This document shows, piece by piece, positions 40,837 through 59,591 of a stretch of 64,000 bases of DNA (within the stretch, counting starts at the first letter, position 1; every line of letters begins with the position of its first letter). Origin of the DNA: Chloroflexota bacterium (GTDB taxonomy: Bacteria > Chloroflexota > Anaerolineae > UBA7937 > B3-Chlor); assembly GCA_030603665.1 (NCBI GenBank), contig JAUVXJ010000006.1, forward strand, positions 124,001-188,000, in the 5' to 3' direction. Position numbers and translations under genes: made by a program. The notes beneath the pieces are model-generated. The model searched no databases, was not told the DNA's origin, and saw nothing but the letters and a program-made list of their open reading frames with translations.

Positions 40837-40877
40837 AATCTGTGCTTTGTCACATCGCTTACGAGGAGAGAGGAGCT

Positions 40878-42047: not shown

Positions 42048-42050
42048 GCC

Positions 42051-42319: not shown

Positions 42320-42372
42320 GCTCGCTTCATCTCCTGCCGGTGACAAAATCGGTCAACGGAATGGACGGGGCC

Positions 42373-43131
42373 TCACACCTCGTTGGGGAGATCTATGAAC
42401 TCCACCTCCGCCTCGAAGCGGTCCCTGATCACGTCACCCAAGGCCAGCACGCCCAACTTCTCCGTGTTGTAGTGACCGCCAGCTATGAAGCTGATGTTTG
42501 CCTCGCGGAACAGCTCCCGGTTCCACTCGTGGGGCTCGCCGGTGATGTAGAGGTCCACCTTATCCCGGATCAACCCCTCCATGTCGGCCGGCAGGGGAGC
42601 GCCCTTGCCGCTCACGGCCACCACCCGCCGCACCTCCGCTGGCCCGAAGAGATAGCTGGCGCGGAGCTGGCCGAACATCCGCTGGCACTCAGCCTCCAGG
42701 TGATCCAACGCCACCGGGGTTTCGAACTCCCCGTACCATCCCCAACCGCCTTCGCCGTAGGGTACCGTGGGCGAAGCGCCCAGACCCTTGATGATCAGGG
42801 CGTTGTGTCCGACCTCGGGGTGGCTGTCCAGGAGGTAATGGTAGCCGATCAGGGAAAGCTCATGCTGGAAGAGGAAGCGCAGCCGCTGGGTAAAGATGGT
42901 ATCCAGGAGTTGTCCCGGGGGCATGTTCATGCCGTGGTGCACCAGGAGGGCATCAGCTTTGCGGGCCACGGCCTCCTCGAAGAGGCGCAGGCTGGCGCTG
43001 ACGCCGGTGGCGAGGAGCTTGACTTCCTCTCTGCCTCTCACCTGCAGGCCGTTGGGCATGTAGGAGTCCTTGTCCCCCACATCGCCCATGAAGTCATCAA
43101 GGAAGGCCATCAGATCGTCCAGAGTAACCAT
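42373..43131 (-). CDS. Nif3-like dinuclear metal centre protein (YbgI/DUF34 family)
   Basis: The 252-residue Nif3 family protein has NGLQVRG near the start, LLVHHGM (metal-binding HHG), LDSHPEVGHNAL, and ITGEPHEWNREL, GGHYNTEKLG toward the C-terminus, matching the conserved two-metal site of the hexameric YbgI/DUF34 family. Length is normal for the short form. Its biochemical role is not settled; it has been called GTP cyclohydrolase I type 2, but that is uncertain. GGAG precedes the ATG. Two partial copies of this gene lie at 36562-36640 and 42051-42111. Confidence 0.88.
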   Translation of the reverse strand: MVTLDDLMAFLDDFMGDVGDKDSYMPNGLQVRGREEVKLLATGVSASLRLFEEAVARKADALLVHHGMNMPPGQLLDTIFTQRLRFLFQHELSLIGYHYLLDSHPEVGHNALIIKGLGASPTVPYGEGGWGWYGEFETPVALDHLEAECQRMFGQLRASYLFGPAEVRRVVAVSGKGAPLPADMEGLIRDKVDLYITGEPHEWNRELFREANISFIAGGHYNTEKLGVLALGDVIRDRFEAEVEFIDLPNEV

Positions 43132-43319
43132 GGAGTCCTCCTGAGCTCTTGTGGCTCAACGCTCTATGTTCGCCATCTCGATGCGCGCTGCCGTCGTGCG
43201 ACGAGCGTCCTCCTCACGCACCGCTGCGTACCCCGACTGCTCAAACCTAGATCTAAGGGCACCGACCCTAGTCACCCGGCACCGATCAGCGCCACCGCAG
43301 CAGGCTAGCCTGCGAGCTT

Positions 43320-46300
43320 CTATCGCCCGGGAGGACTAAGATCAATCGTGGCGTTGTTCACGAACTCCCGAATCTCCTCTTCACTGAAGCGTGCCGCAAG
43401 GAACTCTAGAAGCTCCTGCTGTCGCGGCTGGCCGATCACAGAGCGGTAGGCTACGAGAGATCTCTTCAGCTGTTCGAGTCGCCCGACCTCGCGGCTCAAA
43501 GGGAACACAGGTATTCTTCGCTCGATGGTAAGTGCTTCCTGAGTGGGATCGTCTGGCCGATAGATCCAAAACGGCACCAAGTCATTGGCATCGGTCGGGC
43601 GGTCCTCAATTGCCCGGTCGAAGAGCTGCTGCCAAGGATCGACCTGAGTCCCGCCTGTCTCGACCACGGAGAGCCCATATCCCAGAGCCAGATTTCGACG
43701 GATGACGTGCCCCTTGTAACGGTGAATCCGTCCCTCACGCTGCTCGAGATCGACCGGGTTCGAGGGCAGATTCCAGTGAACAACCCGGTGGCAGTACTGG
43801 TGGAAGTCCAGTCCTTCCTGGCCGATCGAAGTGGTAGCTAGCACAAAAGGACGGAAGGGGGAATTGAAGGCGATTCGAACATCGACATCGCGAGTTCCTT
43901 CGTCATAGTCGAGTGCCTTCTCAGTCCCAAAGCGCAACGCGTACCGACAACGAAGCCCCCTCTTCTCCAGGGCTGGCGCGCTCTCATCTTGCAGGACAAT
44001 CTCGTCGAACCGCAAGGTAGGCGCCCTCAGAGAGAGCGCTTTGTGCACCGTTTCACTCAACTTGTCGGCGGTCTCAGCCGCATCGTGGCCCACCAATCCC
44101 AATGATTCATGGAGCACGTGATAGTATTCATCCATCACAGCCTGGAGATTGCCATCCAAACAGTAGCGAAGCACCTTCTGCCAATAGGCACCTTCTGGAT
44201 AGAGGCTCCGCAACAGCGAGATGACCTGGGGCTGATTGAACAGTGTTCGGAAGCCTAAGCTAACCTTTGCTGCAGATTGGAGGAAGGCCGTCCACTCTGG
44301 AGACACTATCCGCAGTAGAGCCCGCAAGGAAGCTACCGCAGGGCTACTTAGGGCGACATATGTCAGAATATCCACTAGGTTGGATGGGGGCCGACCAAGG
44401 GAGGTCGGCGCGCGGAAGAACTGAGCGAACCCGTCCGCGTGTTCGGCGAACCTAGTTTCTCCCCCTTCATCATCCCTGTGGTCCGAGTCCGCTTCCAGCA
44501 GCCTACTCCATGCTTGCTCTCCTTCCTGGTCGCAGAGCCACCTTCCCACAGTCTTCTTGTTATGATAGCTGTCCAGCACTGCCATCGACGCCCAGTACCA
44601 GAGCTCGTCCTCGGGGCCGCTGTCCACAACATCCATGGAAGCTGTCGCCTGGTTGAGCAGTTCTTCGATGCGGCCCCTACAGGCATCGAAGACCGCCTTG
44701 CTCGAGGGAGGGGTGGTGGTCGTTAGGCCCTTCGCAATGCTAAGTGGATCGACCTCTCGCGCCAGAGTCAAGCATGGGTATGTCAGACAGAACACCGGCA
44801 TACCGGTCAGGCGGCCCCGGCTGCGCGCAAAGTTCAGAAGGGGCCTGCGTTTCTCGGTGAGCTCAGAGTAGCTGAAGTCTCTCTCCTCGTCGCTCAGCAT
44901 GCGCCGCTCAACCTCATAGCTGAGGAGCATGGCAATGGTCTTGGGCACCAGCCTCCACGCAGAGAAGACCAACGTTTTGGTGCAGCCTGCTGCCTCGATA
45001 CCCCGAAACGGACCATCAGGCTGATAATAAGGCAGAGACGGTGGCATCCAGAGAAGCTGCCAGTTTCCGCTCTCTAGGGAGTCTCGCCAGAGCGAGCGTA
45101 GGCGGGCGTTGCCAGGATCGATGGCCTGATACGCGTCGACTGTCTCCCAACGGAGGAAGCTATGTTCGCCCATCTTCAATAGCGTCGCAAGCTCTGGCCC
45201 TTCAGGTGTTGACAGGGCAGCTTCAAGGCTCTTCTTGAGCTTGTATTCTTCCATCAGGTTGAGAGGGTAAGCCGAGGATTTCCAGTACTCAACCTGGTCC
45301 CCCGCGTCGAGGGCCCCCGCAATTCGGTCCAGATGGATGAACCCTGCCAGGTCGGTCGGATGAACCTGATCCTGGGCGACTATGCTCTCTGAGAGCATAC
45401 CTTTGCGATCCGTCGAGGCTGCCAGACGTTCCGTGCGCACCATGACCCGGCGCAGCACACTCTCGATCGTCTCCTTGGGCTCTCGCAGCTCCTCGCGCCC
45501 ACTGCTGTCCAGGTGCAACATGGCCCTGCCGTAGCGCCCAATGGCTGATACCAGGTCGCCCAAATCCTCTGGCTGATTCCTCAATAGGAACTCCACCGTG
45601 TCGTAGAAGTCTTCATAGTGATCTTCTCCTCGTTCCTCCTGGAGTGTGTACATCTTGTAGGGTGTGGCCGAAAGCAGGAGCACTTTCACATCCGGGAACG
45701 CGAATAACTCTCGCGCCAGGAGTGCTGTGTCTCCCTCCGTGCCTAGGAGGTACTTGAAGCGCTGGAACTCATCAAGGATGACCAAATCCGGTTCCAGAGC
45801 GGAGAGGCATGACCGGGCCAGCAGCCGCCTTAAGTCTCCGATCCAGCGGTTGCGCTCTGACCGCATCTCCCACGTCAGATGCTTCCGCCGAGGGCCAATG
45901 AGCTCGGCTACAGCATCGTAGCGGGCCCGAAGCTGAGGAACCTCGTCCAGCGCGCTGAAGAAGGCCTGCTTGAGCTCCTCATCCAGAGCAGGGGCCACTT
46001 CCCGCCCGAACCAGGTCAGATACGACCTCCATCTATCCGGCCTGACGTCTCCGCGAAGGATGTTCTTCAGACTCCCCAGACGAACATCCCAGTACTCTCG
46101 CAACAACGAGTAGAGCACTGCCCGCTCCCGTTGCCACCCACTGCGCGACCGAAGGTGGAATGAGGTAGCAGGCGTCAGGGAAACGAAGTTGAGTCTGTTG
46201 CCCCGGAGCTCCTGCAGCGTGATGGGAAGAAGTGTAGCGCGCGAGGCGAACTGGAAGTGCCGATCGGCGGTGATGTTAAGGCGGTCGATATTCTGCTGGG

Positions 46301-46559
46301 CGATGGCCAGATTGGAGCAGATATAGACAACGTCGATGCGAGGTACGCTATCCCACAGATGATCCACAGCCTTGGCAATCACACCGCGGGCTACCAAGGT
46401 CTTGCCAAGCCCAACCTCGTCAGCAATCAGGAAGCGCGAAACGGAATCGGCATCAGTGTAGAGCCTTTGGAAGATGTAATCCACCGTGTCCCGCTGGAAA
46501 TCCTTCAGACCGCGGAGAACCTCTTCCACGTTGGGTCGCCTGGAGCCCTCTAGCGTCAT
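43320..46559 (-). CDS. SNF2/DEAD-like helicase of a DUF6361-PLD-helicase operon
   Basis: The 1079-residue superfamily 2 helicase has Walker A IADEVGLGKTLVARG (residues about 45-59), a DE-box variant VILDEFQRFKY (near 290), motif III LLSATPYKMYT, and C-terminal helicase motifs TSIGQEGLDFHQYCH and DLEQREGRIHRYKG (motifs V-VI, near 895-945). Between the two RecA-like lobes lies a long insertion of ~500 residues with no recognised domain. Such nucleic-acid helicases with PLD partners are typical of phage-defence modules. The start overlaps the PLD stop (ATGA), and the gene is last in a three-gene coupled operon on the minus strand. Confidence 0.85.
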   Translation of the reverse strand: MTLEGSRRPNVEEVLRGLKDFQRDTVDYIFQRLYTDADSVSRFLIADEVGLGKTLVARGVIAKAVDHLWDSVPRIDVVYICSNLAIAQQNIDRLNITADRHFQFASRATLLPITLQELRGNRLNFVSLTPATSFHLRSRSGWQRERAVLYSLLREYWDVRLGSLKNILRGDVRPDRWRSYLTWFGREVAPALDEELKQAFFSALDEVPQLRARYDAVAELIGPRRKHLTWEMRSERNRWIGDLRRLLARSCLSALEPDLVILDEFQRFKYLLGTEGDTALLARELFAFPDVKVLLLSATPYKMYTLQEERGEDHYEDFYDTVEFLLRNQPEDLGDLVSAIGRYGRAMLHLDSSGREELREPKETIESVLRRVMVRTERLAASTDRKGMLSESIVAQDQVHPTDLAGFIHLDRIAGALDAGDQVEYWKSSAYPLNLMEEYKLKKSLEAALSTPEGPELATLLKMGEHSFLRWETVDAYQAIDPGNARLRSLWRDSLESGNWQLLWMPPSLPYYQPDGPFRGIEAAGCTKTLVFSAWRLVPKTIAMLLSYEVERRMLSDEERDFSYSELTEKRRPLLNFARSRGRLTGMPVFCLTYPCLTLAREVDPLSIAKGLTTTTPPSSKAVFDACRGRIEELLNQATASMDVVDSGPEDELWYWASMAVLDSYHNKKTVGRWLCDQEGEQAWSRLLEADSDHRDDEGGETRFAEHADGFAQFFRAPTSLGRPPSNLVDILTYVALSSPAVASLRALLRIVSPEWTAFLQSAAKVSLGFRTLFNQPQVISLLRSLYPEGAYWQKVLRYCLDGNLQAVMDEYYHVLHESLGLVGHDAAETADKLSETVHKALSLRAPTLRFDEIVLQDESAPALEKRGLRCRYALRFGTEKALDYDEGTRDVDVRIAFNSPFRPFVLATTSIGQEGLDFHQYCHRVVHWNLPSNPVDLEQREGRIHRYKGHVIRRNLALGYGLSVVETGGTQVDPWQQLFDRAIEDRPTDANDLVPFWIYRPDDPTQEALTIERRIPVFPLSREVGRLEQLKRSLVAYRSVIGQPRQQELLEFLAARFSEEEIREFVNNATIDLSPPGR

Positions 46560-48418
46560 GCTATATCACTCCTTGTTTGGGTGACCGCCTCCCAGAAGGG
46601 CTCGAATCCCTCCGGCAGGACTTCGCGCCCTTCTGGCGTGCGTCGCAGTCCCTCGACCAGATCAGCGATGCGGTCGATCTTCTCTGGTGAGCGACTGAGG
46701 GCGCGCATCAACATTTCGAGTAGTGGCATGCCGCTGCTGCCCCATGCCCGATCCCAGGAAGCCCCTGTGCCGTCCACAATCCAATGGATCAGGTTGGCAT
46801 CCTCAGGTGACAGGATCAACCACAGATACCGCAGGAACTGCTCACGCTCGGAGATGATTGCACTGAACAGACGATCACTCCGCCCCTGAGGGATGCCCGA
46901 AATGGGCAGGTTGAGCACAAAGCGGAGCGCATGTCTGTGGTCTTCCACTCGGGCGCTGACCTCAAACGCGATGAAGGAGGTGAGAGCCAGGATAGTGACC
47001 TTGGGGAAGGTCAGCGCCGTGGCCCGGGATGTGTGCTCGATGGGAATGCGTTGCTCGGGATGCAGTGTCACTGGCCAGCAAGCAATCGAGTAGTCGCCCT
47101 GAGGCGGATTGGGCCGGGTATGGTTGCTGTACAACACGAGGTCGAACCGCTCGGCGTCCTGTTCTGCGACGTCCAATCGTAGCTTCAGATCCACAAGCCA
47201 ATCGCGAACTCTATCCGCCACCGCCTCCACCTGTTTCTGCTTCTCATCAACCTCGACCTTTCCACTTGGCCTGTAGGCGCGAAGCAGCGAGAGGATTGCA
47301 CGATCGTCCCCCTCCTCACCAAGGACCTTGTCTATCCCGATCTTGCTCTTGCGCCCTTGCAGCTCGATCATGAACTCCACATTCTTGCGCCGGAAGGCGG
47401 CGTTAGTCGCATTGGCTGAACCTACCAGCCATGTCGCATTCCAACCCGCCTCCTTGACGAAGAGCTTGGCGTGCAATCCTGAAGGATCGGGGCTGGCTCC
47501 AGGGACTTCCTCTCCTAGGCCCACTGTCGTGTCCATGTCTGGCTCTACAGCTTCGGGGTCGTCGAGCACGTATAGCCGCTCAAAGCGGTCCAAGGTCTTG
47601 GGCTTCAGCGCGTCAATGCTCTCAGCACGTGACAGCATGACGTGTCTCTCGCCTTGCTCCGTCAACTGCCTCAGCAGTCGATCACTCAGAAACGGGGAGA
47701 CCACTAGCATGCGATCACATCTTCGGTCAAGGCGTAGCTTCGGGCAGCCTGGGATTCCCAGCGGGTAGAACGCCAGATCGTCTCGGAATGGCCATGGTAC
47801 TCGAAAAGCCACCCTCCGGACTTCGTCCTGCAGCAGTGCGATGTCCGCAGCGATCCGCGGCTCCACCGGATGGACGGCAAGCTCCGGCAGCTGCTGTACG
47901 AAATTGCCAAGAGGGTTGTTGCGGCCGTAAGCCCGCTGGCGGTGAGTCGCCAGATGGCCCTCAAGTCTCAGCATGAGATCCCAGGACTTGTCAAACGTAA
48001 GATTGCGGCTGAGACTCAGAAGACGATAGAGAGGTGGGTGTTCTTCCGCTTCGGCCACGTAGCGCAGCAGCCAAACCTTGGGATGGAAGACCCCGCCCCG
48101 TGGTGCCTGCACCTCGACGATGCTCTTCTCAAGAAAGCTGTACAGGTAGTTGTCTGGAGGTGGGATGGCGATGCGCCCAGCCTGGCAGAAGATGGAAAGC
48201 CGATCCGCGTGGCGGCGCACGCCCTCCAACAGCACGACGGGGTCGTTCAGCGCCGATTCGGAATCCGAGACTTCCAGCAGCGCCAGTGAGAGCGAGGCAA
48301 CAAGTAGGGTGAGCAGATCCAACGTGAAGGTGGTAGCAATCCCCCGGTCAAACTGGTAGCCTTCCGGGGGACGGAGGGCATCCAGGAACAACTCCCTCTG
48401 ATCTGGCGCCAGCATCAT
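46556..48418 (-). CDS. phospholipase D-like nuclease of the same operon
   Basis: The 620-residue protein has one clear HKD motif, SGLHAKLFVKE (H-x-K), followed by the serine-rich WLVGSANATNAAF, near residues 310-340. A second, N-terminal HPKVW region (VFHPKVWLL, near 105) with SLSRNLTFDKSWD downstream resembles the other half-site. Bacterial PLD-type proteins beside helicases are usually nucleases. ATG 48418 has GGGGGAG directly upstream and overlaps the DUF6361 stop; the frame extends upstream as TTG/ATG starts inside that gene, which are unlikely. Stop and helicase start overlap, so all three proteins should be made together. Confidence 0.82.
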   Translation of the reverse strand: MMLAPDQRELFLDALRPPEGYQFDRGIATTFTLDLLTLLVASLSLALLEVSDSESALNDPVVLLEGVRRHADRLSIFCQAGRIAIPPPDNYLYSFLEKSIVEVQAPRGGVFHPKVWLLRYVAEAEEHPPLYRLLSLSRNLTFDKSWDLMLRLEGHLATHRQRAYGRNNPLGNFVQQLPELAVHPVEPRIAADIALLQDEVRRVAFRVPWPFRDDLAFYPLGIPGCPKLRLDRRCDRMLVVSPFLSDRLLRQLTEQGERHVMLSRAESIDALKPKTLDRFERLYVLDDPEAVEPDMDTTVGLGEEVPGASPDPSGLHAKLFVKEAGWNATWLVGSANATNAAFRRKNVEFMIELQGRKSKIGIDKVLGEEGDDRAILSLLRAYRPSGKVEVDEKQKQVEAVADRVRDWLVDLKLRLDVAEQDAERFDLVLYSNHTRPNPPQGDYSIACWPVTLHPEQRIPIEHTSRATALTFPKVTILALTSFIAFEVSARVEDHRHALRFVLNLPISGIPQGRSDRLFSAIISEREQFLRYLWLILSPEDANLIHWIVDGTGASWDRAWGSSGMPLLEMLMRALSRSPEKIDRIADLVEGLRRTPEGREVLPEGFEPFWEAVTQTRSDIA

Positions 48419-49638
48419 CTCCCCCTCTGCGAAGTGGTGAGCCCGCCAAGTATGTCGTTGGTGATCCGGCGGGCAATGGACCAGCGATACCCCAGCTGCG
48501 CTATTCCGGCTGCCCCGCTCCACATCTCCAGGTGCCGCTCATTCTCCAGGCGGGAGCGACCCCGCTTGAGCCAGACTTCACGATTGCGTATCAGAGCCCT
48601 TGCTGCCGCGCTGCTGGCAAGATTCTGCGGTCCTCCATCCGCAAGCGATAGCTCCAGCCAATCGCTCACAAAGCGTTGTGTGGGAACTGCAATGTGCCCG
48701 TGGTCCATCACCAGCTGCCAGAATTTGTGGCGATTCCAGGCAGTGAGCTGTGCAGACCTGGCCGTCAACCCCTCTCTCCAGGCGTCCAGACTGGCCTCGT
48801 ACTCCTCGATGCGGTCCCGTCGCTCGCTGAGTTCGGCCAACATCAGGTTGTAGAGGACCACCACCCCGCGCATCGCTTCAGAGAAGTTGCGCGCATGGGT
48901 GATCCAACCTTGCTGGGTCGAGGGAAACAGTGCCAACTGCGGATGTTGCCATATGAACTCCACATCCTCCACCGGCTCGCAGCGGTCGAGCAGGGTTGCG
49001 AGCAGGCTGTCGTGACAGGACAGCATCACCCTCCTCCGCAGGTATGCCGCCTCTTCGTCTGCGATCTGAAAACCGGCCTGATCCGGGAAACCGTCCGGCA
49101 TCGTGGGCAGACCAGGGCCCCAGTTCGCACCCCCCCATCCCTCTACTGGCTCCCCGTCGTCAGTCAATTGCCGATCGCGATGCCGCTTGTAGAAGTGGTC
49201 AAGCCAGCGGTGGTACTGACCCTGGGAGCCCGAATACCGCAGGATGCCCCAACTGCGCAGGCCGTTCCAGTAGATACTGGCAGGGAAGCGCTGCAAGCTG
49301 GCCCCAGAAACGCTTCCGATGACACCGTCACTCTCCCCGGCTGCCTGCAGCGTCTTCATGAGCTTGACCTCGTCCGACCGCAGTCGCGCGGCGACCTTGT
49401 GAGATGGAACTCTGCGCTCCTCGTACTTGCGATAGAGCCAGGGCACGAAGAGGTAGTATCGCGCCCGTGTTTGAAGAGTGCTGGTGCCTGGGAAGAATAG
49501 GTCGGCGAAGGCATCGCGTATGGAACCCAGCCCCAGCTCATCGCGGGTGTCGCGCTGCTTGAAGAGCGCGACCACCTCCATCATCTTGCGCCGGTCTTCC
49601 TCAGAGAAGTCGATCCAGGCGATGGATGATTGCAGCAT
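48415..49638 (-). CDS. DUF6361 protein, first gene of the defence-like operon
   Basis: The 407-residue protein shows SIAWIDFSEEDRRKMM, DELGLGSIRDAF and LFFPGTSTLQTRARYY, the N-terminal signature that I recognise as DUF6361. No catalytic motif is obvious, and the C-terminal half is helical and uncharacterised. GGAGGT lies at good spacing before ATG 49638. The stop overlaps the PLD start. The combination with PLD and helicase genes suggests a fixed three-part defence system; the name that comes to mind is Azaca, from memory only and not verified. Confidence 0.78.
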   Translation of the reverse strand: MLQSSIAWIDFSEEDRRKMMEVVALFKQRDTRDELGLGSIRDAFADLFFPGTSTLQTRARYYLFVPWLYRKYEERRVPSHKVAARLRSDEVKLMKTLQAAGESDGVIGSVSGASLQRFPASIYWNGLRSWGILRYSGSQGQYHRWLDHFYKRHRDRQLTDDGEPVEGWGGANWGPGLPTMPDGFPDQAGFQIADEEAAYLRRRVMLSCHDSLLATLLDRCEPVEDVEFIWQHPQLALFPSTQQGWITHARNFSEAMRGVVVLYNLMLAELSERRDRIEEYEASLDAWREGLTARSAQLTAWNRHKFWQLVMDHGHIAVPTQRFVSDWLELSLADGGPQNLASSAAARALIRNREVWLKRGRSRLENERHLEMWSGAAGIAQLGYRWSIARRITNDILGGLTTSQRGR

Positions 49639-49740
49639 CGTCGTTACCTCCGCTCTTCTGGGGACTCACTCAACGGCTACGTACCCCAGCCTCCCCCGGG
49701 TCTGGTTGGGACCCTGCTCTCCATCGTATGGCCACCAAAG

Positions 49741-50030
49741 CCCTAGAAGGGGATCTCTTCCTCCTTGCTGGCTTCCTGGGAGGACTCCCTTGCGCCTGCG
49801 CGTACCTGCGTCCCAAACATGGTGGCGTATCCCGTCCAGCCATCTGCGGAGAGGGGTTCGCTCTCCACAGCGTCGAGAAAGCCATGGATATCCCCGTCCA
49901 TCCAGTCGGCGTGGTGGAGGGCAAGGCCTCCAACGTCTTGGGCGGTACGGGAGAGCCCCGTTCCAAGGCCCCTTCGTGGGCAATGAGCCTCCCCTCATCG
50001 CTGAGATCCAGAACCGAGCCCAGTCCCTGA
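49741..50030 (-). pseudogene. yhaM 3'-end copy with frameshift and internal deletion
   Basis: This DNA matches the 3' third of the yhaM-like gene (51243-51620), from its stop codon inward. ERGSPV-PKTLEAL is still readable on the minus strand before a frameshift. About 105 bases present in the intact gene are missing near 49980. There is no start or metal-site region. It lies between the DUF6361 and mrr genes; 49639-49740 contains only the DUF6361 ribosome site and no recognised feature. Confidence 0.85.
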
Positions 50031-50065
50031 TGCCATGGCGGGATCGCCCTGCCCTTGCCATTGCG

Positions 50066-50971
50066 TCACCACTCACCCTCGAAATAGTCCAGATCGATGG
50101 CTCTCACGACGTAGGTTTCCACTTCACTCACCCCCACACCGTGGTCAATCATCAACTCCGCCAGTTCTTCGCCGTCGATCAGCACGATCCTCCTGTCAAG
50201 CCTCTCCGCGAAGTCCCTTGCACCGGGAGAGAAGCGTGACGTGGTGATCAGAACGCCTTTCCTTGCTTTCTCGCCTTGAAGGCTCCCCGCGAAACCTTGC
50301 ACAACGGGTCTTCCAACAGGGTCTTTCCACCGTTTCGCCTGAACATAGACCGCATCCAGGCCGAGTTTGTCTTCCTTGATAATGCCATCGATTCCACCGT
50401 CGCTGCTGCCACCCACCGCCCGCCCGGCGTCTGACCTGGAGCCACCGTACCCCATTGCGACTAGGAGGTCTACGACGAGCTTCTCGAAAAACCCGGGGTC
50501 ACGAGCCAGCACCTGGTCGAGCAATTCATGCGCCAGTTGGCTTCTCAGCGTCTTGTAGCTCGACTCGAGAAGCTCTTGTGGTGTCAGTTCGCCCTCCCCC
50601 TCATCTTCCTCCTCATCGGGCCTCTTCCTGGGGGTACGGAACTCCACGAACTCCGGGAAGCGGTCCAGGAACTTGATGCTCATTTCCGAGGGCTCTTCCT
50701 CCAGCACCTCAACACCGCGCTGCGTGATCCGGAATTTCCCCCGGCCTGTGTACTCAAGCAGCCCCGCCTTCTTCAAATACGTACGTGCCCATCCGATCCT
50801 GTTGTTGAACTTCGGCTGGCTGCCACTGGCGAGCGGTTCCTTTCTCTCATCGTCCGACAGGTCGAATTGAGAGGCCAACGCTTCTGTGGTCTCACTCAGG
50901 CTGTGCTCTCGCTGGTCAGCGGCAAGGGTCAGAAGCGGAAGCATGAGAGTCTGAAAACCGGGAATGCTCAT
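50066..50971 (-). CDS. mrr: Mrr-type restriction endonuclease
   Basis: The 301-residue protein matches E. coli Mrr in both domains. The N-terminal winged helix spans SIPGFQTLMLPLL through WARTYLKKAGLLEYTGRGKF. The C-terminal Mrr_cat domain has LLVAMGYGGSRSDAGR, GGSSDGGIDGII and the nuclease core VYVQAKRWK (D ... Q-x-K, a PD-(D/E)xK variant). Mrr cleaves DNA carrying certain methylated bases. ATG 50971 has GGAGGT seven bases upstream; the frame continues left but the Mrr homology starts here. It has its own consensus promoter (51106-51134) and is flanked by the intact yhaM gene and a broken yhaM 3' copy. Confidence 0.92.
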   Translation of the reverse strand: MSIPGFQTLMLPLLTLAADQREHSLSETTEALASQFDLSDDERKEPLASGSQPKFNNRIGWARTYLKKAGLLEYTGRGKFRITQRGVEVLEEEPSEMSIKFLDRFPEFVEFRTPRKRPDEEEDEGEGELTPQELLESSYKTLRSQLAHELLDQVLARDPGFFEKLVVDLLVAMGYGGSRSDAGRAVGGSSDGGIDGIIKEDKLGLDAVYVQAKRWKDPVGRPVVQGFAGSLQGEKARKGVLITTSRFSPGARDFAERLDRRIVLIDGEELAELMIDHGVGVSEVETYVVRAIDLDYFEGEW

Positions 50972-51105
50972 GTACCGACCTCCCATCGGGATTGGCCCAA
51001 TGAATGTCGCAGGGCCTGTTCGCAAGACAAGAAGGACTCGCGTTGGGTACAAGGCTGTGCGAAGAGGAGGCGATGTTGTGGCGCCGCCGAGCACCCCAAT
51101 GCTCC

Positions 51106-51134
51106 ATTATAGACCAATTCATGATGCCTGTCAA
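51106..51134 (-). promoter_or_regulatory. sigma-70 promoter of mrr
   Basis: On the minus strand TTGACA (51134-51129) and TATAAT (51111-51106) are both perfect and 17 bases apart. Transcription would start about 130 bases before the mrr start codon. The surrounding 42 bases match the addB promoter region at 33 positions. Confidence 0.8.
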
Positions 51135-51145
51135 TACGACGTGCG

Positions 51146-51194
51146 TCCTTCGATACGGCCTGAAGCCTGCTCAGCATACAGCTCAGGATGCACT
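51146..51194. repeat. dispersed intergenic repeat, copy 1
   Basis: TCCTTCGATACGGCC ... CTCAGCATACAGCTCAGGATG recurs in the 59.19-59.56 kb spacer, for example CTCAGCATGCAGCTCAGGATG at 59531-59551, with one difference in 21 bases. It is a short non-coding repeat of unknown role. Confidence 0.6.
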
Positions 51195-51243
51195 CTGCCC
51201 GGTCTGGCCGCGAGCTTGCTCCGGAGCGCACAGTCAAGCAACC

Positions 51244-52236
51244 CTAGAAAGGGAGCTGTTCCACCTCACCGTCTTCTTCAGGCGACTCCACAGGCCCCGG
51301 GTAGAGCCGCGTGCCAAACATCTTCACATACCCGGTCCAGCCATCCTCAGAGAGGGGTTCGCTCTCCACGGCGTCGAGGAAGCCACGGATGTCTCCGTCC
51401 ATCCAGTCGGCGTGATGCAGGGCCAAGGCCTCCAACGTCTTGGGCACCACGGGAGAGCCTCGTTCCAGCGCCCCATGGTGGGCCAGAATGGCATGTAGTA
51501 GGCGGTTGCGAAGGTCTTGAGGAAAACCCTCAATGCCATCGATCGCCGTCTGGACCACCAACGCTCCCTGAGCAACGTGGTTGATCAGTCTCCCCTCGTC
51601 GGTGAAATCCAGAACCGGGCCCACGGAATAGGACGTGGCCTTTCCTACGTCGTGCAGTATCGCCGCTGTCAGGAGCAGATCGCGATGGATCTCCGGGTGC
51701 TCGTGGGCAACGAAGGAGCACAGCCTGACCACGGCCAGAGTATGCTCCAGCAGCCCGCCGATGCAAGCATGATGGTACTTCTTGGCCGCCGGCGCCCTGC
51801 CGAACGTGGTTTCGAACTCCTCGTCTGAGAATAGATGATCGAGAAGCTGAGAGAGGTACGGGTCCTCGATGTCTGCCAGCACCTGCTGCAACTCTCGTCG
51901 CATCTCCTCCAGGTCTCGCTTGGCCTGGGGCAGGAAAGGGGAGAAATCCTGGATCTCCACCAGCTGAAGGCGCTCGATGCGGACCTGGCGAGAGCCCGCG
52001 GGATACTCCTCCACGCTGCCATCGATGCGGACGCCAGAGCCCACCTCCAGTTGCTCCTCCATCTTGGGGGGGAGGTCCCAGTATCGGGCCTCGATGCGCC
52101 CCGTACTATCTGCGAGCGTCGCTCTGAGGTAGGGGTCCCCCTTCTTGGTCTTGTCGACATTCGACTGTGCCAGAAGATAGACTTCGCCGCTGACGGTCGA
52201 TCCTATCTCCAGGTCCTTGATGGGTACTCTGGCCAT
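51244..52236 (-). CDS. yhaM: YhaM-like 3'-5' exoribonuclease (OB-fold plus HD domain)
   Basis: The 330-residue protein has an N-terminal OB-fold (about 5-95: TVSGEVYLLAQSNVDKTKKG, given in part) and an HD phosphohydrolase domain with YHHACIGGLLEHTLAVV, AAILHDVGKA, HVAQGALV and AILAHHG, the metal-binding H ... HD ... H ... H set of the YhaM/CBF1 family. These enzymes degrade RNA or single-stranded DNA from the 3' end, or bind replication proteins. The C-terminus ends in an acidic tail. It lies 46 bases after the AddA gene, probably in the same transcript. A broken copy of its 3' third lies at 49741-50030. Confidence 0.87.
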   Translation of the reverse strand: MARVPIKDLEIGSTVSGEVYLLAQSNVDKTKKGDPYLRATLADSTGRIEARYWDLPPKMEEQLEVGSGVRIDGSVEEYPAGSRQVRIERLQLVEIQDFSPFLPQAKRDLEEMRRELQQVLADIEDPYLSQLLDHLFSDEEFETTFGRAPAAKKYHHACIGGLLEHTLAVVRLCSFVAHEHPEIHRDLLLTAAILHDVGKATSYSVGPVLDFTDEGRLINHVAQGALVVQTAIDGIEGFPQDLRNRLLHAILAHHGALERGSPVVPKTLEALALHHADWMDGDIRGFLDAVESEPLSEDGWTGYVKMFGTRLYPGPVESPEEDGEVEQLPF

Positions 52237-52282
52237 ATCCGTTCCTTTCCTCTGTAATGCGAAGGGAAACCCTCGGCCTCGC

Positions 52283-55200
52283 TCACGTCGTATCTGAGCC
52301 TTTGCCTTCGGCGCCTTCCAGCGGGTCCAGCAGGTGCACGCCTCCGGCGTAGTTCAGCAAACACAGGATCGACCGAGCCCGCTCCCCGAGCAGGTGTTCC
52401 ACCGCGGCCACATACCGTTGCGCCTGGGCAAGGTAATCCACCTCTTCCAGCAACCTCTTCAGCTCCGCCTGGTCTTTCACCTCGTCCGTCTTGAACTCCA
52501 CGATGGTCCACGACCCATCCTGCGAATAGAGGGCATCGATGATCCCGTTCTCCACTCGCCCGTCCACAGTGCGGCTGTAAGGCACCTCGTGTTGCCGTAG
52601 CTCTGCGCCGTTCATCTCCTCGTACAGCTCGTGTTCGCGGAAGCGCCGCAGTAACTTCTTGCTTTGACTGGCCGCGTCCTTCAGCTGGGCGGAATCTGCG
52701 ATGCCGTGCTGGCGCGCCCGGGCCAAGACCCAGGCCTCAAACCCATCCTCGGGAAAGCGCCACGCCGCCAGCGCCTCGTGAACCAGCAAGCCGACCACCC
52801 AGCGCGGCGCTTGGGGCTTCGGACCGGTTGGGACCACCCGCCACACCCGCTGGGGTGGTCGCCGGTCCCGATCCTTCGTCCGCTGGTCCACCTGCTCCTG
52901 CCCGGCCAATACCGGCTCCAGGAGGGGCGGCGGCAGACGCTCCGGGTGCTGCGCTTCTGATTTCGTTTCTCGCGGCGGGTAGTCGACTGCGTACTCCGGC
53001 TCGTAGATGGTGCAGGAGACCGGTGTCTCGTCCACCTGTAGATCCACACGATGTGCCCCCGAGCCTTCTTCGTCATAATCGATACGTGTGCTGTCCAGGG
53101 TCAGGCCCTCTGGAGCATTCAGCTTCCCCAACCATCCACCCAGCTTGGAGATAGAGCCGTCCTTCTTCAGCCCGATGATTCCGCTGAGGATCAGCTTCTC
53201 CCGCGCACGAGTCGCCGCTACGTACAGCAGCCGATCCGATTCGGCATCCTCCTGGTCGTCAGAACGGTCCTTCCCCAGGCGGTAGACGGCGGGCAGTTCG
53301 TCCTCCTCGTCCTTCACGGGCAGCAGCACCCCCAGGTCCCCATCGACGAGCACCGAGCTTCGGCCGCCCCCACCGTAGGTCGCATCTCCGATGACCACCA
53401 CCGGGAACTCCAGCCCCTTCGCCGCGTGGACGCTCATGATCTGTACTGCGCCCTCCGCGGTGGCGCGGGCTTCTCCCTCCCTGGTTCCCGTGTCCCGCAG
53501 GCCGTTCACGTATTCCACGAACTCGCCTACCCCTACGATGCCGCTGGTGTGGGCATCGCTCAGGAGCTTGGCCACGTTGCGGGCTCCTCGGGCCTGCCCG
53601 GATTGTATCAACGCCGCCCGATAGTCGGTGGCATCCACGAAAGCCTTGATCACGTCCGCCACAGAGGTTCTTCCCACCCGGTGGTGGAGATCGTCGATGA
53701 TAGCCGCCGCCCGCCGGGCACGGAGGTTTTCGTCGCCCAGAAGGCCCTTATCTGGCTCCTGCAATACCGCCCACAGGGAGCCAGTCGGCTCGGTGTTGCG
53801 ACACATCTGGCAGAGCTGATAGAGACCTGCGTCCGAGAGAGCCATGGCCGGCGACCGCAGCAGGCCGGCCAGAGCCAGATCGTCCGTGGGGTCGGCCAGA
53901 GCCTGAAGCGCGTTCAGCAGATCCCGCACCTCGGGACGGGTATAGAAACCCCGGCCCGCCACAGTGAGGAAAGGCACCCCAGCTCGCTCCAGTGCGTCCT
54001 CGTAGGCGCCGAAAGAGGTCGAAGCTCGGCACAGTATGGCGATGTGACCGTAGTCCAGAGGCACCAGTTGGTCATCAACCTCGATCTGAACTTCGTCACC
54101 CTCCACCAGTTCCAGGAGGCGTGCCGCCAGGGCATCGGCGGCCCGGTCCAGCGCCCCGCCGCCCTTGGTGCCGACGGTGAGATGCAGCTCCACATGGGCC
54201 GGCACGAAGCCAGGGCCAGGCGCCTCGCGGTGATGCCGCAGCGATGCGAAGGGCTCAGCCCAGGGACGATGTGCATCCGCTTCCTCTCCCAACACCGGCC
54301 GCAGCAGGTTGTTCAGTCCCTCCACCAGGTCCCGATGGGCACGGTAGCACACGTCGATGTCCAGGACCGCGCCCTCCTCCCCCTTGATTCGCTCCCGCTC
54401 AGCCCGGAAGACGGTCACGTCGGCCCCCCGGAAACGGTAGATGGACTGCTTGGCATCGCCCACCACAAAGAGCCTGCCCAAGCCGCCGTTCAAGAGGTTC
54501 ACCAGGTCTCTCTGGCGCCCGTTGGTGTCCTGGAACTCATCCACCAGGATGGCCAACACCTCTCCCTGCCAACGCTTCAGCACGCTCCCATTCTCTTCCA
54601 GCAGGTGCAGCGCGTCATACTCCAGGTCGTCGAAGTCCAAGACGTTGCGCTCTCTTTTGAATGCGTCATAACGCTGGCAGGCGAAGGAGAAGAACGCACT
54701 CAGCGCTGGCAAGGACTGGGCCAGCTCCTCGTCCAGCGGCGTGAGAGTGAGTTCCAATAATGAGGACTGGCTCTTCCACAGCTCACGCAGCGAGCGCAGA
54801 GCTGACTTCACCTCAGCAAGCTGACCCTTGCCTCCAAGCCAGGCCTTATAACTCCCTCCCGAGAGGTTGATCTCGTTCAGCCGTCCGAGGGAGGCCAGCC
54901 TGTCTGCCAGGGACCCCACGGCGCCCAACACGGCCTCCAGCACGGCTCGACGTTGTATCTCCATCCTGTCGTCGGGGTTGGTTGCGGCATTGTTCTGCAG
55001 GACGTCAACAGCGTCATCCCACGCCGCCATCCCGAGCAGTTGGTTCAGCACCCGTTCCTGTCCCTCGGCCAACGCTTGCTGCCAGTGCCCCAGCACGTCC
55101 TCAGGTAGCTGGTCCAGGGCCTGCTCCACGTCCAGCCTGCACTGCACGAGACGATCGATGCTACCTCTCAGCCGTCGCTCGCCCAGCAGATCAAACAGTT

Positions 55201-55687
55201 CGACCACATCCAAGTCGTCCGCAGCCCAGGCCAGCGCCTCGGCCACCGCCCTGCCACGCAGGATGTTGGTCTGCCCCTCTTCCAAGACTTCGAAGCGCGG
55301 GTCCACCTCTGCCTCTGCAGGATGGCTGAGCAGGATCTCGGTACACAGGCTGTGGATGGTTCCGATGCGGGCTGCGTCCAGCTCGCTGTACAGCCCCTGC
55401 CAGCGCTGCCGCTCTTCCTCCGATAGATCATCCCGCTCCAGGTACCTGCGCGCTTCGGCGCGGACCCTGTTACGCATCTCTCGGGCGGCCTTCCTGGTGA
55501 AGGTGATGGCCACCACGGAGCGCAGCGGCAGACCATCCGCCAGGAGAGCCAGGTAACGGGCCACCAGCGTGCGGGTCTTTCCTGTGCCCGCCCCGGCGGT
55601 GACCACGACGTCGCGGCCCCTCTCGTGGACTGCGGGTTCCTGTTCAGGGCTGAGGGACATCTGCGCGACGATAGGGTGTAACATCAT
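52283..55687 (-). CDS. addA: AddA-type helicase-nuclease (UvrD/RecB family)
   Basis: The 1134-residue UvrD-like superfamily 1 helicase has Walker A VTAGAGTGKTRTLVARY (residues about 30-46), motif Ia ITFTRKAAREM, motif II ILVDEFQDTNGRQRD, motif III GDAKQSIYRFRGAD and motif VI VAATRAREKLI. The C-terminal RecB-like nuclease domain carries GIIDALYS and IVEFKTDEV. With AddB it should form the double-strand-break-processing helicase-nuclease that prepares DNA for RecA and also destroys foreign linear DNA. ATG 55687 abuts the AddB stop codon, so translation is coupled. Confidence 0.88.
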   Translation of the reverse strand: MMLHPIVAQMSLSPEQEPAVHERGRDVVVTAGAGTGKTRTLVARYLALLADGLPLRSVVAITFTRKAAREMRNRVRAEARRYLERDDLSEEERQRWQGLYSELDAARIGTIHSLCTEILLSHPAEAEVDPRFEVLEEGQTNILRGRAVAEALAWAADDLDVVELFDLLGERRLRGSIDRLVQCRLDVEQALDQLPEDVLGHWQQALAEGQERVLNQLLGMAAWDDAVDVLQNNAATNPDDRMEIQRRAVLEAVLGAVGSLADRLASLGRLNEINLSGGSYKAWLGGKGQLAEVKSALRSLRELWKSQSSLLELTLTPLDEELAQSLPALSAFFSFACQRYDAFKRERNVLDFDDLEYDALHLLEENGSVLKRWQGEVLAILVDEFQDTNGRQRDLVNLLNGGLGRLFVVGDAKQSIYRFRGADVTVFRAERERIKGEEGAVLDIDVCYRAHRDLVEGLNNLLRPVLGEEADAHRPWAEPFASLRHHREAPGPGFVPAHVELHLTVGTKGGGALDRAADALAARLLELVEGDEVQIEVDDQLVPLDYGHIAILCRASTSFGAYEDALERAGVPFLTVAGRGFYTRPEVRDLLNALQALADPTDDLALAGLLRSPAMALSDAGLYQLCQMCRNTEPTGSLWAVLQEPDKGLLGDENLRARRAAAIIDDLHHRVGRTSVADVIKAFVDATDYRAALIQSGQARGARNVAKLLSDAHTSGIVGVGEFVEYVNGLRDTGTREGEARATAEGAVQIMSVHAAKGLEFPVVVIGDATYGGGGRSSVLVDGDLGVLLPVKDEEDELPAVYRLGKDRSDDQEDAESDRLLYVAATRAREKLILSGIIGLKKDGSISKLGGWLGKLNAPEGLTLDSTRIDYDEEGSGAHRVDLQVDETPVSCTIYEPEYAVDYPPRETKSEAQHPERLPPPLLEPVLAGQEQVDQRTKDRDRRPPQRVWRVVPTGPKPQAPRWVVGLLVHEALAAWRFPEDGFEAWVLARARQHGIADSAQLKDAASQSKKLLRRFREHELYEEMNGAELRQHEVPYSRTVDGRVENGIIDALYSQDGSWTIVEFKTDEVKDQAELKRLLEEVDYLAQAQRYVAAVEHLLGERARSILCLLNYAGGVHLLDPLEGAEGKGSDTT

Positions 55688-58600
55688 TCAGCCGCCAAAT
55701 CCAGGCATATAGCGCCAGCAGAAAGCCACCGCGGGACAATAGGACGGGCATCCGCCTTGCGGCGGCCGAGGGATGAAATGGCCGGTCCGCGCACCGCGCA
55801 CCGCCTCCCAGGCCTTGTCCAGCGCGACCCCCATCGCTCCTCTTGGCCCACCGTCGAATCTGCTCAACGTGAAGCCGCTGCGCTCCGCCTGCTGCACGTG
55901 CCAGTAGAACCCCTCTGAAGGCTCCCCAAGCCCCAGAGCGTCACGGGCAGCCAGGGCGTAGAGGGGCAACTGCAGCTTCTTACCGTCGGTCACAGCCTTC
56001 TTGGTGAACGCCGATTTCCCACCGGTCTTGTAGTCGATGACACGGACCATACCGTCGGAGGTCACGTCCACACGGTCGATGAAGCCCCGCAGACGCAGGC
56101 TGTCGTCCACTGCGTCCACGACCAGCGGCGGTTGGCCTCGCACGCCAAAGGGGGCCTCAAAGTGCGTGGGGACCCAGTTCCCGTTCTCTTCTTGCAGCGC
56201 CTCCAGCGACCGGCGGACCTTGTCCTCGATCTCCCGACCAGTCTGCACCCACCAGGCCGTCTCCCGGAACCCCTCCCGCCTGGGGGCCTCGTCCAGGACC
56301 TGTTCCGCGACTCTCGGAAGCACTTCCAGGAGTTGCTCCAGCGAGGTGGGATCTGTGACCATGGCGTCCCCATACACATCCTGCAAGATGCGGTGGTAGA
56401 TGTTGCCCAGCTGGCGAGCATCTAGCCCCTCCATCGGTTCCTCTCGGGCCTCCAATCCCAGAACGCTGCCCAAGAAGAAGAAGAACCCGCAGGTGACGTA
56501 GCTCTCCAGACGGCTCGGGCTCCACACGTGGGTAGGGGGGAACCGCCGGGCGAAGGTTTCGCCCAGGGTGGTCAGGTCGCCGTCGTAGGGACCGGGTAGA
56601 TCATCCTCTCCGAGCAGAGTCGAACGCACACGTAACACGCTGCTCGCCTCGTCCAAAGCAGCGAAACGCGTTAGCTCGGTTTCAGAAACCCATTGTCGAA
56701 CGTCCTCGTATCCTGAGTGGGCGGAGAGACTCTCCATCAACTCAGGCCAGGAGGCGACGGCAGAGGAGATGGGCAGACTCTCGCTGGTCAGCGTCTGGGG
56801 TTGCGCATCAACGAGCCTGCGCACCTCCTCCCAGAAAGGGGACGCCTGCCAGAGCGCACCATTGTCGGCGAGCCGCGGTCGCGTAAGGAGCAACCGCTCC
56901 GCAGGATGGCTCACCGTCTCGTAGAAGAACCCGGCCTCGGCGCTTTCAGTGGAAGGCTCCAGGGCCAGGTCGAATCTCTCACGCAGATTGCGACGGTCGG
57001 CGTCGCGCAGGAACGGATCCTCGCTCAGGGTGGCCGGGAACTCCCCCTCGGCCAGGCCCAGCACAGCCACTGCCCGGAAGGGTACGCCGCGGGCCTGGAG
57101 CACATCAGCGACCAGAACCTCCTCGCGGTCGGGGTGGAGCGGCAGGCGAAAGGTGGCCGCGTCCACTGCCCCCACCAGCTCGGCGAAGAAGGCAGCGAAG
57201 TCCAGAGTGAATACCCCCAGCGCGTCTTCGGCCCACACCAATCCGCGAAGGATATCCTTGAGGGCCCGGAGCGCTGCCACGTCGCGGTCGGCCACCGCCT
57301 CAGACGCCTCTCGAGCCCGCCGTACAATCCGCAGAGACGTTGGCTCCTCGGGCAGAGGGAAGCGGGCTGATGCCAACTCCGGATCCTCACCTATGAGCTC
57401 CTCCAGCCAGCCAACGAACTCCCGGTAGGAATGCTCGCCCTCCGGTGGTGTCAATCTGTCGACGAAGCGCTCGAACTTCTCCTGGAGCGCCCGAGCAGCG
57501 ACACCCACAGGCACCTCTGCCGGCCGGCCTCGCTCTTCATCGTCATCGGAGACTTCCTCCGACTGTCCCGCCAGATCCCTCAGGACCTCCTGCCATTGGG
57601 AGAGCCCGCCGATAACCCGTCCCCAGCGTGCCGTAGCATCGAGAGCATCGGCGTCCTGCGGGGAGATGCCGATGGGCTCCTTGCCCTCCTTTGGGTAGGC
57701 GGACCAGTCGAAGTATGGGGAACGCCAGGCTTCGAGCACCAAACGGCGGGGCAGAGCCGGCTCTGGATCCGTCTCGGAGCGGGGCAACATCAGTCGTAGC
57801 AGGTCCAAGAGGGCGGCGATGGTTGGGTTGGCGCGCAGTGGAAGTCCATCCACGAGCTGCGCGGGAATCCCGAACTCCTCCACGGTCTGTTGGATGAAGG
57901 GGCGATAGGGTGTGATGGAGCGGGCCAGCAGGCCCACGTCCCCGGGACGCATCCCATCGTCCACAAGGCGCGCCTTGAGCCAGCGCAGAGCTGCCCGCAC
58001 CTCGGCAGCGCGGTCCGGCGCTTCCATGAGTTCCAGGACGCTCTGGGCGTCGATCCGATGGGCATCGCTGCGATACAGCTTCGCTTCCAGGTGAGCAAGT
58101 GCCGGAGCTTGGCCTGACACAGGCTCAGGCAGCGGAGTTGCCTGCACAGCGAGCCTTTCCTCCACCAGCCTTCGCGTTCGCCCAAACCGGCGGTGCACCA
58201 GGGGGCGTTCGCTCCCGTCCACGGTGCCGGTGAGGGTGAGAATCATGTCGCTTACGCGGTCCGCAAGCACAGCGAGGAAGTCCAGTTGCACGGGGGTGAA
58301 GTTGTCGAAGCCGTCGATGACCAGCAGAGGCCAGTCTTGGGCCACCTGGGGAGCGCGTTGGTCGAGCGCCTCAACGGCGAGCCATCCAAGTCCCGCCCGA
58401 TCGGCCCACTGACGTTCTTGCAGGCGTTCCTGGTACGCAGAGTAGATGCGGGCCAGCTCGCCCAACCGGGGTTCATCGCCCAGCGAAACCACGGCCTCTG
58501 AGAGCTTCTCCGGCCACACTCTTGCGGCCTTGAACTCTCCGATCATCTCCATCAGGATGTGGAAAAAACCGGGTCTGTCGATGATCGGCGCGTAGTGGAC

Positions 58601-58900
58601 CAATTGGAGATCGTCCACGATGCTTCGGATCAGCCTGTGCTGGACGGGGTCGCTCAGTTCTGTGTAGACCTCGCCAGCAGCAGTCAGACACTCGGCGTAC
58701 AGCTGATCGAAGGTGAGCACCCGCACGCCAATGGCGCCTCCCGCCTCGGCCAAGCGCCTCCGCCAGGAACGCACCTGCAACTGCGAGGGCACCACAACGC
58801 GGGGGACGGACTCCAGATCCCGGGCAGCGTCGCGGGCCAGATTGAGGACGTACGAGGTCTTTCCGGCGGCGGCCGGAGCGAGGTAGACCGAAACGGGCAT
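55688..58900 (-). CDS. addB: AddB-type helicase-nuclease with Fe-S cluster motif
   Basis: The 1070-residue protein has Walker A YLAPAAAGKTSYVL at the N-terminus, degenerate superfamily 1 helicase regions, and a C-terminal PD-(D/E)xK nuclease (RVIDYKTGG). Cysteines in TCGFFFFL and in GGCPSYCPAVAFCW form the split C ... C-x3-C-x5-C set that binds a 4Fe-4S cluster in AddB nucleases. ATG 58900 (MPVSVYLAP) is chosen because AGAGGT precedes it; an in-frame start at 58963 is less likely. It has its own consensus promoter at 59042-59070 and leads the addB-addA-yhaM transcript. Confidence 0.87.
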   Translation of the reverse strand: MPVSVYLAPAAAGKTSYVLNLARDAARDLESVPRVVVPSQLQVRSWRRRLAEAGGAIGVRVLTFDQLYAECLTAAGEVYTELSDPVQHRLIRSIVDDLQLVHYAPIIDRPGFFHILMEMIGEFKAARVWPEKLSEAVVSLGDEPRLGELARIYSAYQERLQERQWADRAGLGWLAVEALDQRAPQVAQDWPLLVIDGFDNFTPVQLDFLAVLADRVSDMILTLTGTVDGSERPLVHRRFGRTRRLVEERLAVQATPLPEPVSGQAPALAHLEAKLYRSDAHRIDAQSVLELMEAPDRAAEVRAALRWLKARLVDDGMRPGDVGLLARSITPYRPFIQQTVEEFGIPAQLVDGLPLRANPTIAALLDLLRLMLPRSETDPEPALPRRLVLEAWRSPYFDWSAYPKEGKEPIGISPQDADALDATARWGRVIGGLSQWQEVLRDLAGQSEEVSDDDEERGRPAEVPVGVAARALQEKFERFVDRLTPPEGEHSYREFVGWLEELIGEDPELASARFPLPEEPTSLRIVRRAREASEAVADRDVAALRALKDILRGLVWAEDALGVFTLDFAAFFAELVGAVDAATFRLPLHPDREEVLVADVLQARGVPFRAVAVLGLAEGEFPATLSEDPFLRDADRRNLRERFDLALEPSTESAEAGFFYETVSHPAERLLLTRPRLADNGALWQASPFWEEVRRLVDAQPQTLTSESLPISSAVASWPELMESLSAHSGYEDVRQWVSETELTRFAALDEASSVLRVRSTLLGEDDLPGPYDGDLTTLGETFARRFPPTHVWSPSRLESYVTCGFFFFLGSVLGLEAREEPMEGLDARQLGNIYHRILQDVYGDAMVTDPTSLEQLLEVLPRVAEQVLDEAPRREGFRETAWWVQTGREIEDKVRRSLEALQEENGNWVPTHFEAPFGVRGQPPLVVDAVDDSLRLRGFIDRVDVTSDGMVRVIDYKTGGKSAFTKKAVTDGKKLQLPLYALAARDALGLGEPSEGFYWHVQQAERSGFTLSRFDGGPRGAMGVALDKAWEAVRGARTGHFIPRPPQGGCPSYCPAVAFCWRYMPGFGG

Positions 58901-59041
58901 GTGAACCTCTGTGCTCGGTGCCGATGGTTGCCAAATCGAACCCGGCAACAACCCGGGAGACACAAGGTAAATGCGCGGCTGAGCCGGCCCGGGATCGAAG
59001 AGAAGACGACGTAGTGAGGCCAGCCCTTAGGTCACTCGTCC

Positions 59042-59070
59042 ATTATAGCACAATCTCTGCCGTCTGTCAA
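59042..59070 (-). promoter_or_regulatory. sigma-70 promoter of addB-addA
   Basis: On the minus strand TTGACA (59070-59065) and TATAAT (59047-59042) are perfect and 17 bases apart. It is almost the same unit as the mrr promoter, including flanking bases on both sides. Confidence 0.8.
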
Positions 59071-59136
59071 TACAACGTGCTGATGCATCGAGATGCGCTC
59101 TCCAAGGTCAGAATGTCGACCCCATTCCGACCCTAA

Positions 59137-59165
59137 CCTCCCGGAGGTTCGGAACCTCCGGGAGG
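59137..59165. repeat. 29-base perfect palindromic element
   Basis: CCTCCCGGAGGTTC - G - GAACCTCCGGGAGG is a perfect 14-bp inverted repeat with a one-base centre in the addB-59609 intergenic region. It is REP-like; no T-tract follows, so a terminator is less likely than a mobile or structural repeat. Confidence 0.75.
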
Positions 59166-59189
59166 GTTGACACTGAGGTTAGAGCCGCA

Positions 59190-59555
59190 TCCTTCGATAC
59201 ACCCTTTGGGCACTCAGGATGCACTCGTTTCGCGAGGGTCTGGATGCGAAGTCACGCTGGGATCGGAGGCAGGATGGGTAGCCGGGGTCTCACCCTCCCC
59301 TTCGCCCCTCCCATCAAGGGAGGGGAACCACTATGCTAGCAGCGAGAGATCCCTCCACATCGAGGGAGGACGGAGGGGGGGTGGCTTCCGAAGACAGGCT
59401 TCGGCATCTCCTTCGCCAAGCTTAGCGCGCAGCCTTCGATACGCCCTTTGGGCACCCTTCGTCAGGCTCCGGGCGCATGCTTCGATACGGCCTTCGGCCT
59501 ATCCTTCGACGAACAGGCTCAGGACGTGGCTCAGCATGCAGCTCAGGATGCTCCC
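59190..59555. repeat. dispersed intergenic repeat cluster
   Basis: Three CTTCGATAC units (near 59190, 59433 and 59480) with CTCAGGATG and CTCAGCATGCAGCTCAGGATG tails repeat the motif seen at 51146-51194. Between them are GC-rich inverted repeats, for example CCCCTCCC ... GGGAGGGG (59305-59325) and TCCCTC ... GAGGGA near 59350. No coding frame in this 540-base stretch is credible. Confidence 0.6.
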
Positions 59556-59591
59556 GACGTAGACAGAGTGGCTTACTTCCGCGCCGTGAAG

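Follow-up and report, generated by a model that had tools for sequence, protein, structure and literature searches.

A promoter-leader family at defence operons and a dead yhaM 3' copy in a Chloroflexota defence island

The promoter of mrr in the window analyzed here (a stretch of 64,000 nucleotides from a Chloroflexota genome) belongs to an undescribed family of promoters joined to an RNA leader; in the bacterial family studied here, many defence operons start with such an element. This promoter-leader family was the unexpected result of the analysis and is more surprising than the degenerate copy of the yhaM 3' end that lies beyond mrr, which represents a dead duplicate of part of a gene, a common kind of feature. 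Both lie in a segment of a defence island that is read from a single strand.

The defence island

The window is contained in contig C8 (219 kb) of the genome G000 (4.19 Mb). Its minus strand carries, in this order, addB-addA-yhaM, a perfect promoter, mrr, the degenerate yhaM 3' copy and zacA-zacB-zacC. Coordinates, domains and a three-block alignment confirmed the part of this layout that had been described in the initial annotation, namely yhaM, the consensus promoter, mrr and the degenerate copy.

The genes of an addB-like nuclease (55688..58963, minus strand as for all genes below; probable start near 58900) and an addA-like UvrD helicase/PD-(D/E)XK nuclease (52283..55687) lie ahead of the intact yhaM-like gene (51244..52236). 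Its product of 330 aa possesses both the OB fold and the HD domain of YhaM (PF01966, 5e-13; PF01336, 2e-8). The best NCBIfam match of this protein was YhaM (2.8e-43), below the equivalog cut-off (148 vs 460 bits), and it matched YhaM chains in the PDB with an E value of about 1e-32. The mrr gene (50066..50971, ATG at 50971) encodes a type IV restriction endonuclease with Mrr_N plus Mrr_cat (PF04471, 6e-37; PF14338, 4e-31; PADLOC mREase_IV, 3e-90). All three genes of the Zac system of PADLOC are present together and begin 104 bp past the yhaM copy: zacA (DUF6361; 48415..49638; ZacA, 1e-137), zacB (46556..48523; ZacB, 8e-178) and the helicase gene zacC (43320..46559; ZacC, 1124 bits). These genes would form two units, the one consisting of a promoter-leader, addB, addA and yhaM and the other of a promoter-leader, mrr, the dead yhaM 3' piece and zacABC.

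DNA searches revealed that a region of ~25 kb (34590..59566) is absent at the matching site of two relatives of the same family, G001 (C25) and G002 (C160), in which only ~150 bp separate the flanks. The closest relative of yhaM occurs in G002, a Chloroflexota MAG of the sister genus. Thus, the island holds addAB, yhaM together with its copy, mrr and zacABC, and yhaM, lying within an island that is missing in the relatives, is therefore no conserved or fixed chromosomal dock here. Parts of the left third of the island were found on other contigs of G002. We looked by eye for a clear direct repeat at the island ends and saw none. Dispersed intergenic repeats (CTTCGATACGGCC... / ...GCTCAGGATGC) are located at 59137-59551, at the right end of the island, and at 51169-51191, behind yhaM; part of these repeats also matches loci of G002 and G003.

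The promoter-leader family

The mrr promoter (TTGACA-N17-TATAAT, 51134-51106 on the minus strand) agrees with the consensus at 12/12 positions and runs on into a leader (51026..51098) with a stem around a conserved loop; promoter and leader together span ~120 nt in the family. The mrr promoter-leader matched the region upstream of addB, which holds a promoter and a divergent leader (58996..59080, minus strand), over 85 bp (68% ungapped; score 62, compared with 31 for the best of 500 shuffles). We built a sequence model (R1) of the mrr and addB promoter-leaders, that is, from two loci of this island and regardless of what follows other matches, and searched four genomes. R1 detected seven more leader-type instances, on contigs C173, C7 and C64 of G002 and on C27, C4 and C5 (two instances) of G000. 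The weakest had E values of 0.1-0.15 and were accepted because the promoter and the leader motif were also present. A structured model (R2) trained on eight leaders added two instances on C7 of G002 (64.6 and 35.6 bits) and one on C5 of G000 (23.3 bits, E 0.003-0.02). R2 matched the mrr leader, which is a training member, with 63.5 bits, and R1 also matched it, together with the promoter; only a 49-nt part of the addB leader was matched by R2, with 10 bits. The family thus comprised 12 instances in two genera, including the divergent addB leader: 51026-51144 and 58996-59080 of the window, L186:7302-7427, L187:11224-11346, L188:413-490, 2410-2533 and 4562-4640, L189:1477-1600, L190:11182-11306, L192:6311-6389 and 10220-10342, and L194:1401-1524.

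Across 400 kb sampled elsewhere in G000, R2 detected no true leader; the one candidate in this background was taken as false, as it is located within a long coding frame and lacks a promoter. Further, R2 gave no match at E < 0.8 on the examined loci from other families. R1 matches on C15 and C16 of G000, C128 of G002 and C56 of G001 were promoter-only or leaderless and were not counted. Nine leaders searched with 4227 Rfam models yielded no match at E <= 0.5-1, and we found no report in the open-licence literature of such a leader ahead of defence operons.

Within the island, the leaders head mrr (followed by zacABC) and addB-addA-yhaM. The leader on C173 of G002 heads brxB-brxC-pglX-TIR-pglZ-brxL-yhaM, and those on C7 of G002 head an SNF2 helicase-methyltransferase operon, a ClpP/AbiEi-type unit and an MNT-like gene (by eye). 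Another leader heads a type III RM system with HEC-01, and that on C27 of G000 precedes a PDC-M05A gene, which is followed by IIG/DrmMI-like and SspC/BrxC-like genes. The remaining leaders head an operon of SUKH and a DEAD/KH protein, RmuC, a PIN-like gene (by eye) and one gene without an assigned identity. By raw count, roughly 7 of the 12 leaders were located at defence or toxin-antitoxin loci, as judged by PADLOC, Pfam or reading.

Three of these loci have features of their own. In the BREX operon on C173 of G002 (L033:3526-15193), a TIR-domain gene lies between pglX and pglZ. The leader-headed operon on C4 of G000 (L190:1197-9042) encodes SUKH, an unknown protein of 414 aa and a DEAD helicase of 1648 aa that carries S1 and KH domains; PADLOC gave no match for this operon, which is a candidate for a new defence system. 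On C5 of G000 (L192:3243-10176), two leaders occur in one cluster that holds RmuC and a set of membrane protein, PIN-like and ASCH-like genes (the latter by eye), and this is a candidate defence cluster.

In the first nine leaders examined, the sequences on the two sides of the conserved CATCGTCTCYTCTTCG loop can pair with each other. When 11 members were aligned (A8), 84% of the cells were paired, whereas slid partners gave 36-53%, and 2 of 500 shuffles reached the covariation score. Three caveats apply: the training-set register was in part set by hand, A8 was fitted to the model, and the sequences come from two related genera and are non-independent. A conserved stem with compensatory changes, as in a structured cis-regulatory leader, was present. 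Among three untrained members, two paired clearly better than shuffles (0/500 and 13/500) and one did so weakly (37/500). When the 5' and 3' parts were swapped among leaders, the observed total duplex energy was reached in 1980 of 50000 permutations. Folding of growing transcripts indicated that a competing second hairpin forms in the BREX, C7 and C5a leaders, and in the BREX leader it is followed by UUCUUUUU. Covariation did not support this second (terminator) hairpin, and attenuation is therefore a guess: that the leader acts as an RNA attenuator is possible but unproven.

Expression of mrr, and perhaps also of zacABC, would start from the mrr promoter and proceed via the folded leader, which is of the type found ahead of other defence operons here. 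A bolder reading, rather less likely than not, is that the defence operons of the family (BREX, type III RM, Mrr, HEPN/MNT, SNF2-methyltransferase and addAB-yhaM) share the promoter and the folded leader with its conserved loop, that the leader serves them all as one RNA switch, which may be an attenuator, and that they thereby constitute an RNA-controlled defence regulon. If this is true, a leader RNA shared by unrelated defence operons would be a directly testable switch. It would also be a sequence tag for finding new defence genes, and several leader-headed operons match no known system.

The yhaM copy and its origin

The copy spans ~50022 to a TAG at 49741 on the minus strand (codons ~204-330) and is collinear with the final ~380 bp of yhaM over three blocks (48 nt, 81%; 63 nt, 86%; 182 nt, 76%), which bear out the direct repeat on both sides of mrr that had been noted initially. 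In total, 221 of 284 aligned bases were identical, with a longest exact run of 21, and the similarity was far above chance (E = 2.5e-51 in a whole-genome search). The block offsets of 1601, 1502 and 1501 indicate a deletion of 99 nt, which had been estimated at about 105 bases, and a deletion of 1 nt (1502 vs 1501), which is the one frameshift reported earlier. A shared end at the stop codon had also been claimed. Both sequences do reach the stop but it is not a clear end, as weak collinear similarity (21/29) continues past both stops (~22-52 nt), with a score that was matched by 25 of 500 shuffles before collinearity was considered. Such in-register similarity ~50 nt beyond the stop would follow from a copied stretch that extended past the coding end.

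With G002 as the outgroup, the copy-specific changes at codon positions 1/2/3 numbered 14/9/15, compared with 3/3/10 in the intact gene (38 changes in the copy, one outgroup genus). By this substitution pattern, the copy is shown to have evolved without coding constraint since its split from the intact gene, and the even spread indicates that it was dead nearly from the start. The piece likely has no protein function and forms a spacer between mrr and zacA, and it is probably transcribed. The gap between mrr and the piece (43 bp) resembles those between addA and yhaM (46 bp) and between brxL and yhaM of G002 (76 bp). The third-position identity of the intact yhaM genes of G000 and G002 was 0.554 on the 5' side and 0.556 on the 3' side of codon 204. 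Nothing thus pointed to a foreign origin of the 3' end of the intact yhaM, and this possibility was dropped. Whole-genome searches detected no further yhaM copies in G000 or G002.

G002 also carries a 3'-only yhaM copy on a separate contig (C172, L034:12120-12500), where it follows a ferredoxin-type gene and has no adjacent mrr. The start of this copy is within 0-27 bp of that of the G000 copy, the spread being due to a poorly conserved stretch. Its changes over codon positions were 11/9/8, and thus it was likewise apparently without coding function nearly from the start. Among quartet sites, 18 paired each copy with its own intact gene, 7 joined the copies and 2 crossed; the copies therefore seem to be of separate origin, and that of G000 seems younger than the split from the sister genus, a result that gene conversion could mimic. 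A comparison of the region downstream of yhaM among relatives had been proposed as a check on insertion. G001 and G002 lack the whole island, and the broken G002 copy without mrr comes near to a case against insertion, yet it is apparently independent.

A Sak4-like phage gene is located ~400 bp downstream of the G002 copy. Carriage of the yhaM 3' end by phage was considered and rejected, as no viral contig carries the fragment and the Sak4-like gene is a lone remnant. The empty site of the G002 copy was uninformative, since G000 similarity stops ~100 bp ahead of the copy and the gene order is shuffled. The intact yhaM of G002 lies directly behind brxL of the BREX operon, and a HEPN/MNT-type (PDC-M05) pair comes next; there too, yhaM closes a leader-headed defence operon. 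In other Chloroflexota, the neighbours of yhaM were varied and mostly non-defence, as judged by eye, and yhaM adjoined neither addA nor Zac at any of the loci examined. A 3'-only copy was present in both yhaM-bearing genomes of the family, and, contig-edge matches aside, none was seen in the other genomes of the class with yhaM.

Local duplication and decay fits the yhaM piece best, and we consider it about evenly balanced between right and wrong. Such a duplication would create a junction between the mrr end and an internal point of a second yhaM, for example by tandem duplication of the yhaM 3' half, its flank, the leader and mrr, with later loss of the second leader-mrr or its replacement by zac; alternatively, a second yhaM closing the mrr unit would have been truncated at once. 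No site-specific recombinase would be needed. The codon pattern, the quartet sites, the flank similarity and the lack of an ancestry break at codon 204 favour local duplication over integration. However, no second leader or mrr lies behind the piece, where the fragment is followed by zacABC, and the tandem-duplication intermediate was not seen. Further, two unrelated duplications that begin at nearly the same codon of yhaM are expected in only ~0.5-5% of cases (a post hoc estimate from gene length). In a rough alignment, the mrr leader seemed less similar to the addB leader than to others, and thus the leaders give no date for the duplication. Another scenario, in which the entire addB-addA-yhaM operon was duplicated in tandem and mrr replaced its middle, was suggested by the 85-bp match between the promoter-leaders of addB and mrr; it was rejected because the leaders form a family and the mrr leader looks closer to those on C27 and C5 of G000.

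If DNA of a close relative that carried the yhaM 3' end, the leader and mrr recombined into yhaM, with homology at one junction and illegitimate joining at the other, the observed order would also arise without an integrase. The displaced resident 3' end would decay neutrally, given a very close donor, and would keep the resident flank that leads to zacA. We regard this displacement as unlikely: the present yhaM 3' end shows no difference in ancestry from the 5' part, no genome of the genus with an empty site was found, and the weak flank similarity demands that the flank be shared as well. Site-specific integration, with a crossover ~380 bp before the yhaM stop that brought in a replacement 3' end and mrr and pushed the old 3' end outward, and with an integrase since lost or acting in trans, is distinctly improbable. 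It predicts the gene 3' end on both sides of the cargo, and a fixed crossover site agrees with copies that start 0-27 bp apart in two genera. In contrast, the repeats are only 1.6 kb apart, the G002 copy is on a different contig from its yhaM, and the fragment occurs on no viral contig. Searches for tyrosine (PF00589) and large serine (PF07508) recombinases detected none on the whole 219-kb contig, in agreement with the initial annotation, and none on the two G002 contigs with yhaM sequences. The earlier proposal, by which a housekeeping 3' end or docking site had received an insertion, found no support, as yhaM is inside the island, the copy is unconstrained, the stop is no clean boundary and the G002 copy lies elsewhere; insertion at a gene 3' end may nonetheless have occurred, as the collections searched yielded no second genome of the genus. 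Least probable of all, and hardly to be expected, is that the last ~380 bp of yhaM are a recurrently copied or mobile piece in the family, by whatever mechanism. The 3'-only copies with nearly the same start in both yhaM-bearing genomes would agree with this, but only two copies are known, neither genome holds more, and the shared start may be a coincidence.

Comparison with known systems

In E. coli, the e14 prophage at icd leaves a displaced icdC fragment, with the gene 3' end on both sides of foreign cargo and a dead outer copy. The yhaM 3' end likewise flanks cargo and its outer copy is dead. Unlike e14, there is no integrase here, the repeats are only ~1.6 kb apart and the target gene is itself inside the island. 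The same orientation, the 99-nt deletion, the frameshift and the changes spread evenly over codon positions resemble ordinary partial duplication and pseudogene decay, whereas a defence gene lies between the copies and the copy of the sister genus starts at nearly the same place. The yhaM copy thus cautions that a gene 3' end repeated around cargo need not signal integration.

The rplJL leader of B. subtilis is a bacterial transcription-attenuator leader (PMC4538822). As in such leaders, a promoter is followed here by a leader of ~75 nt with a conserved stem, and a competing second hairpin occurs in some members. In contrast to them, the present family heads many unrelated defence operons, matches no Rfam model, has a terminator hairpin without covariation support and is known from sequence alone. 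The joint switching of many defence systems is poorly known, and the regulators that we found described are proteins, such as BrxR (PMC9122589) and RptR (PMC12255303), which control defence islands. The promoter-leader resembles these in being one regulatory element common to, or controlling, defence operons; unlike BrxR and RptR, the shared element here is a promoter plus a leader RNA.
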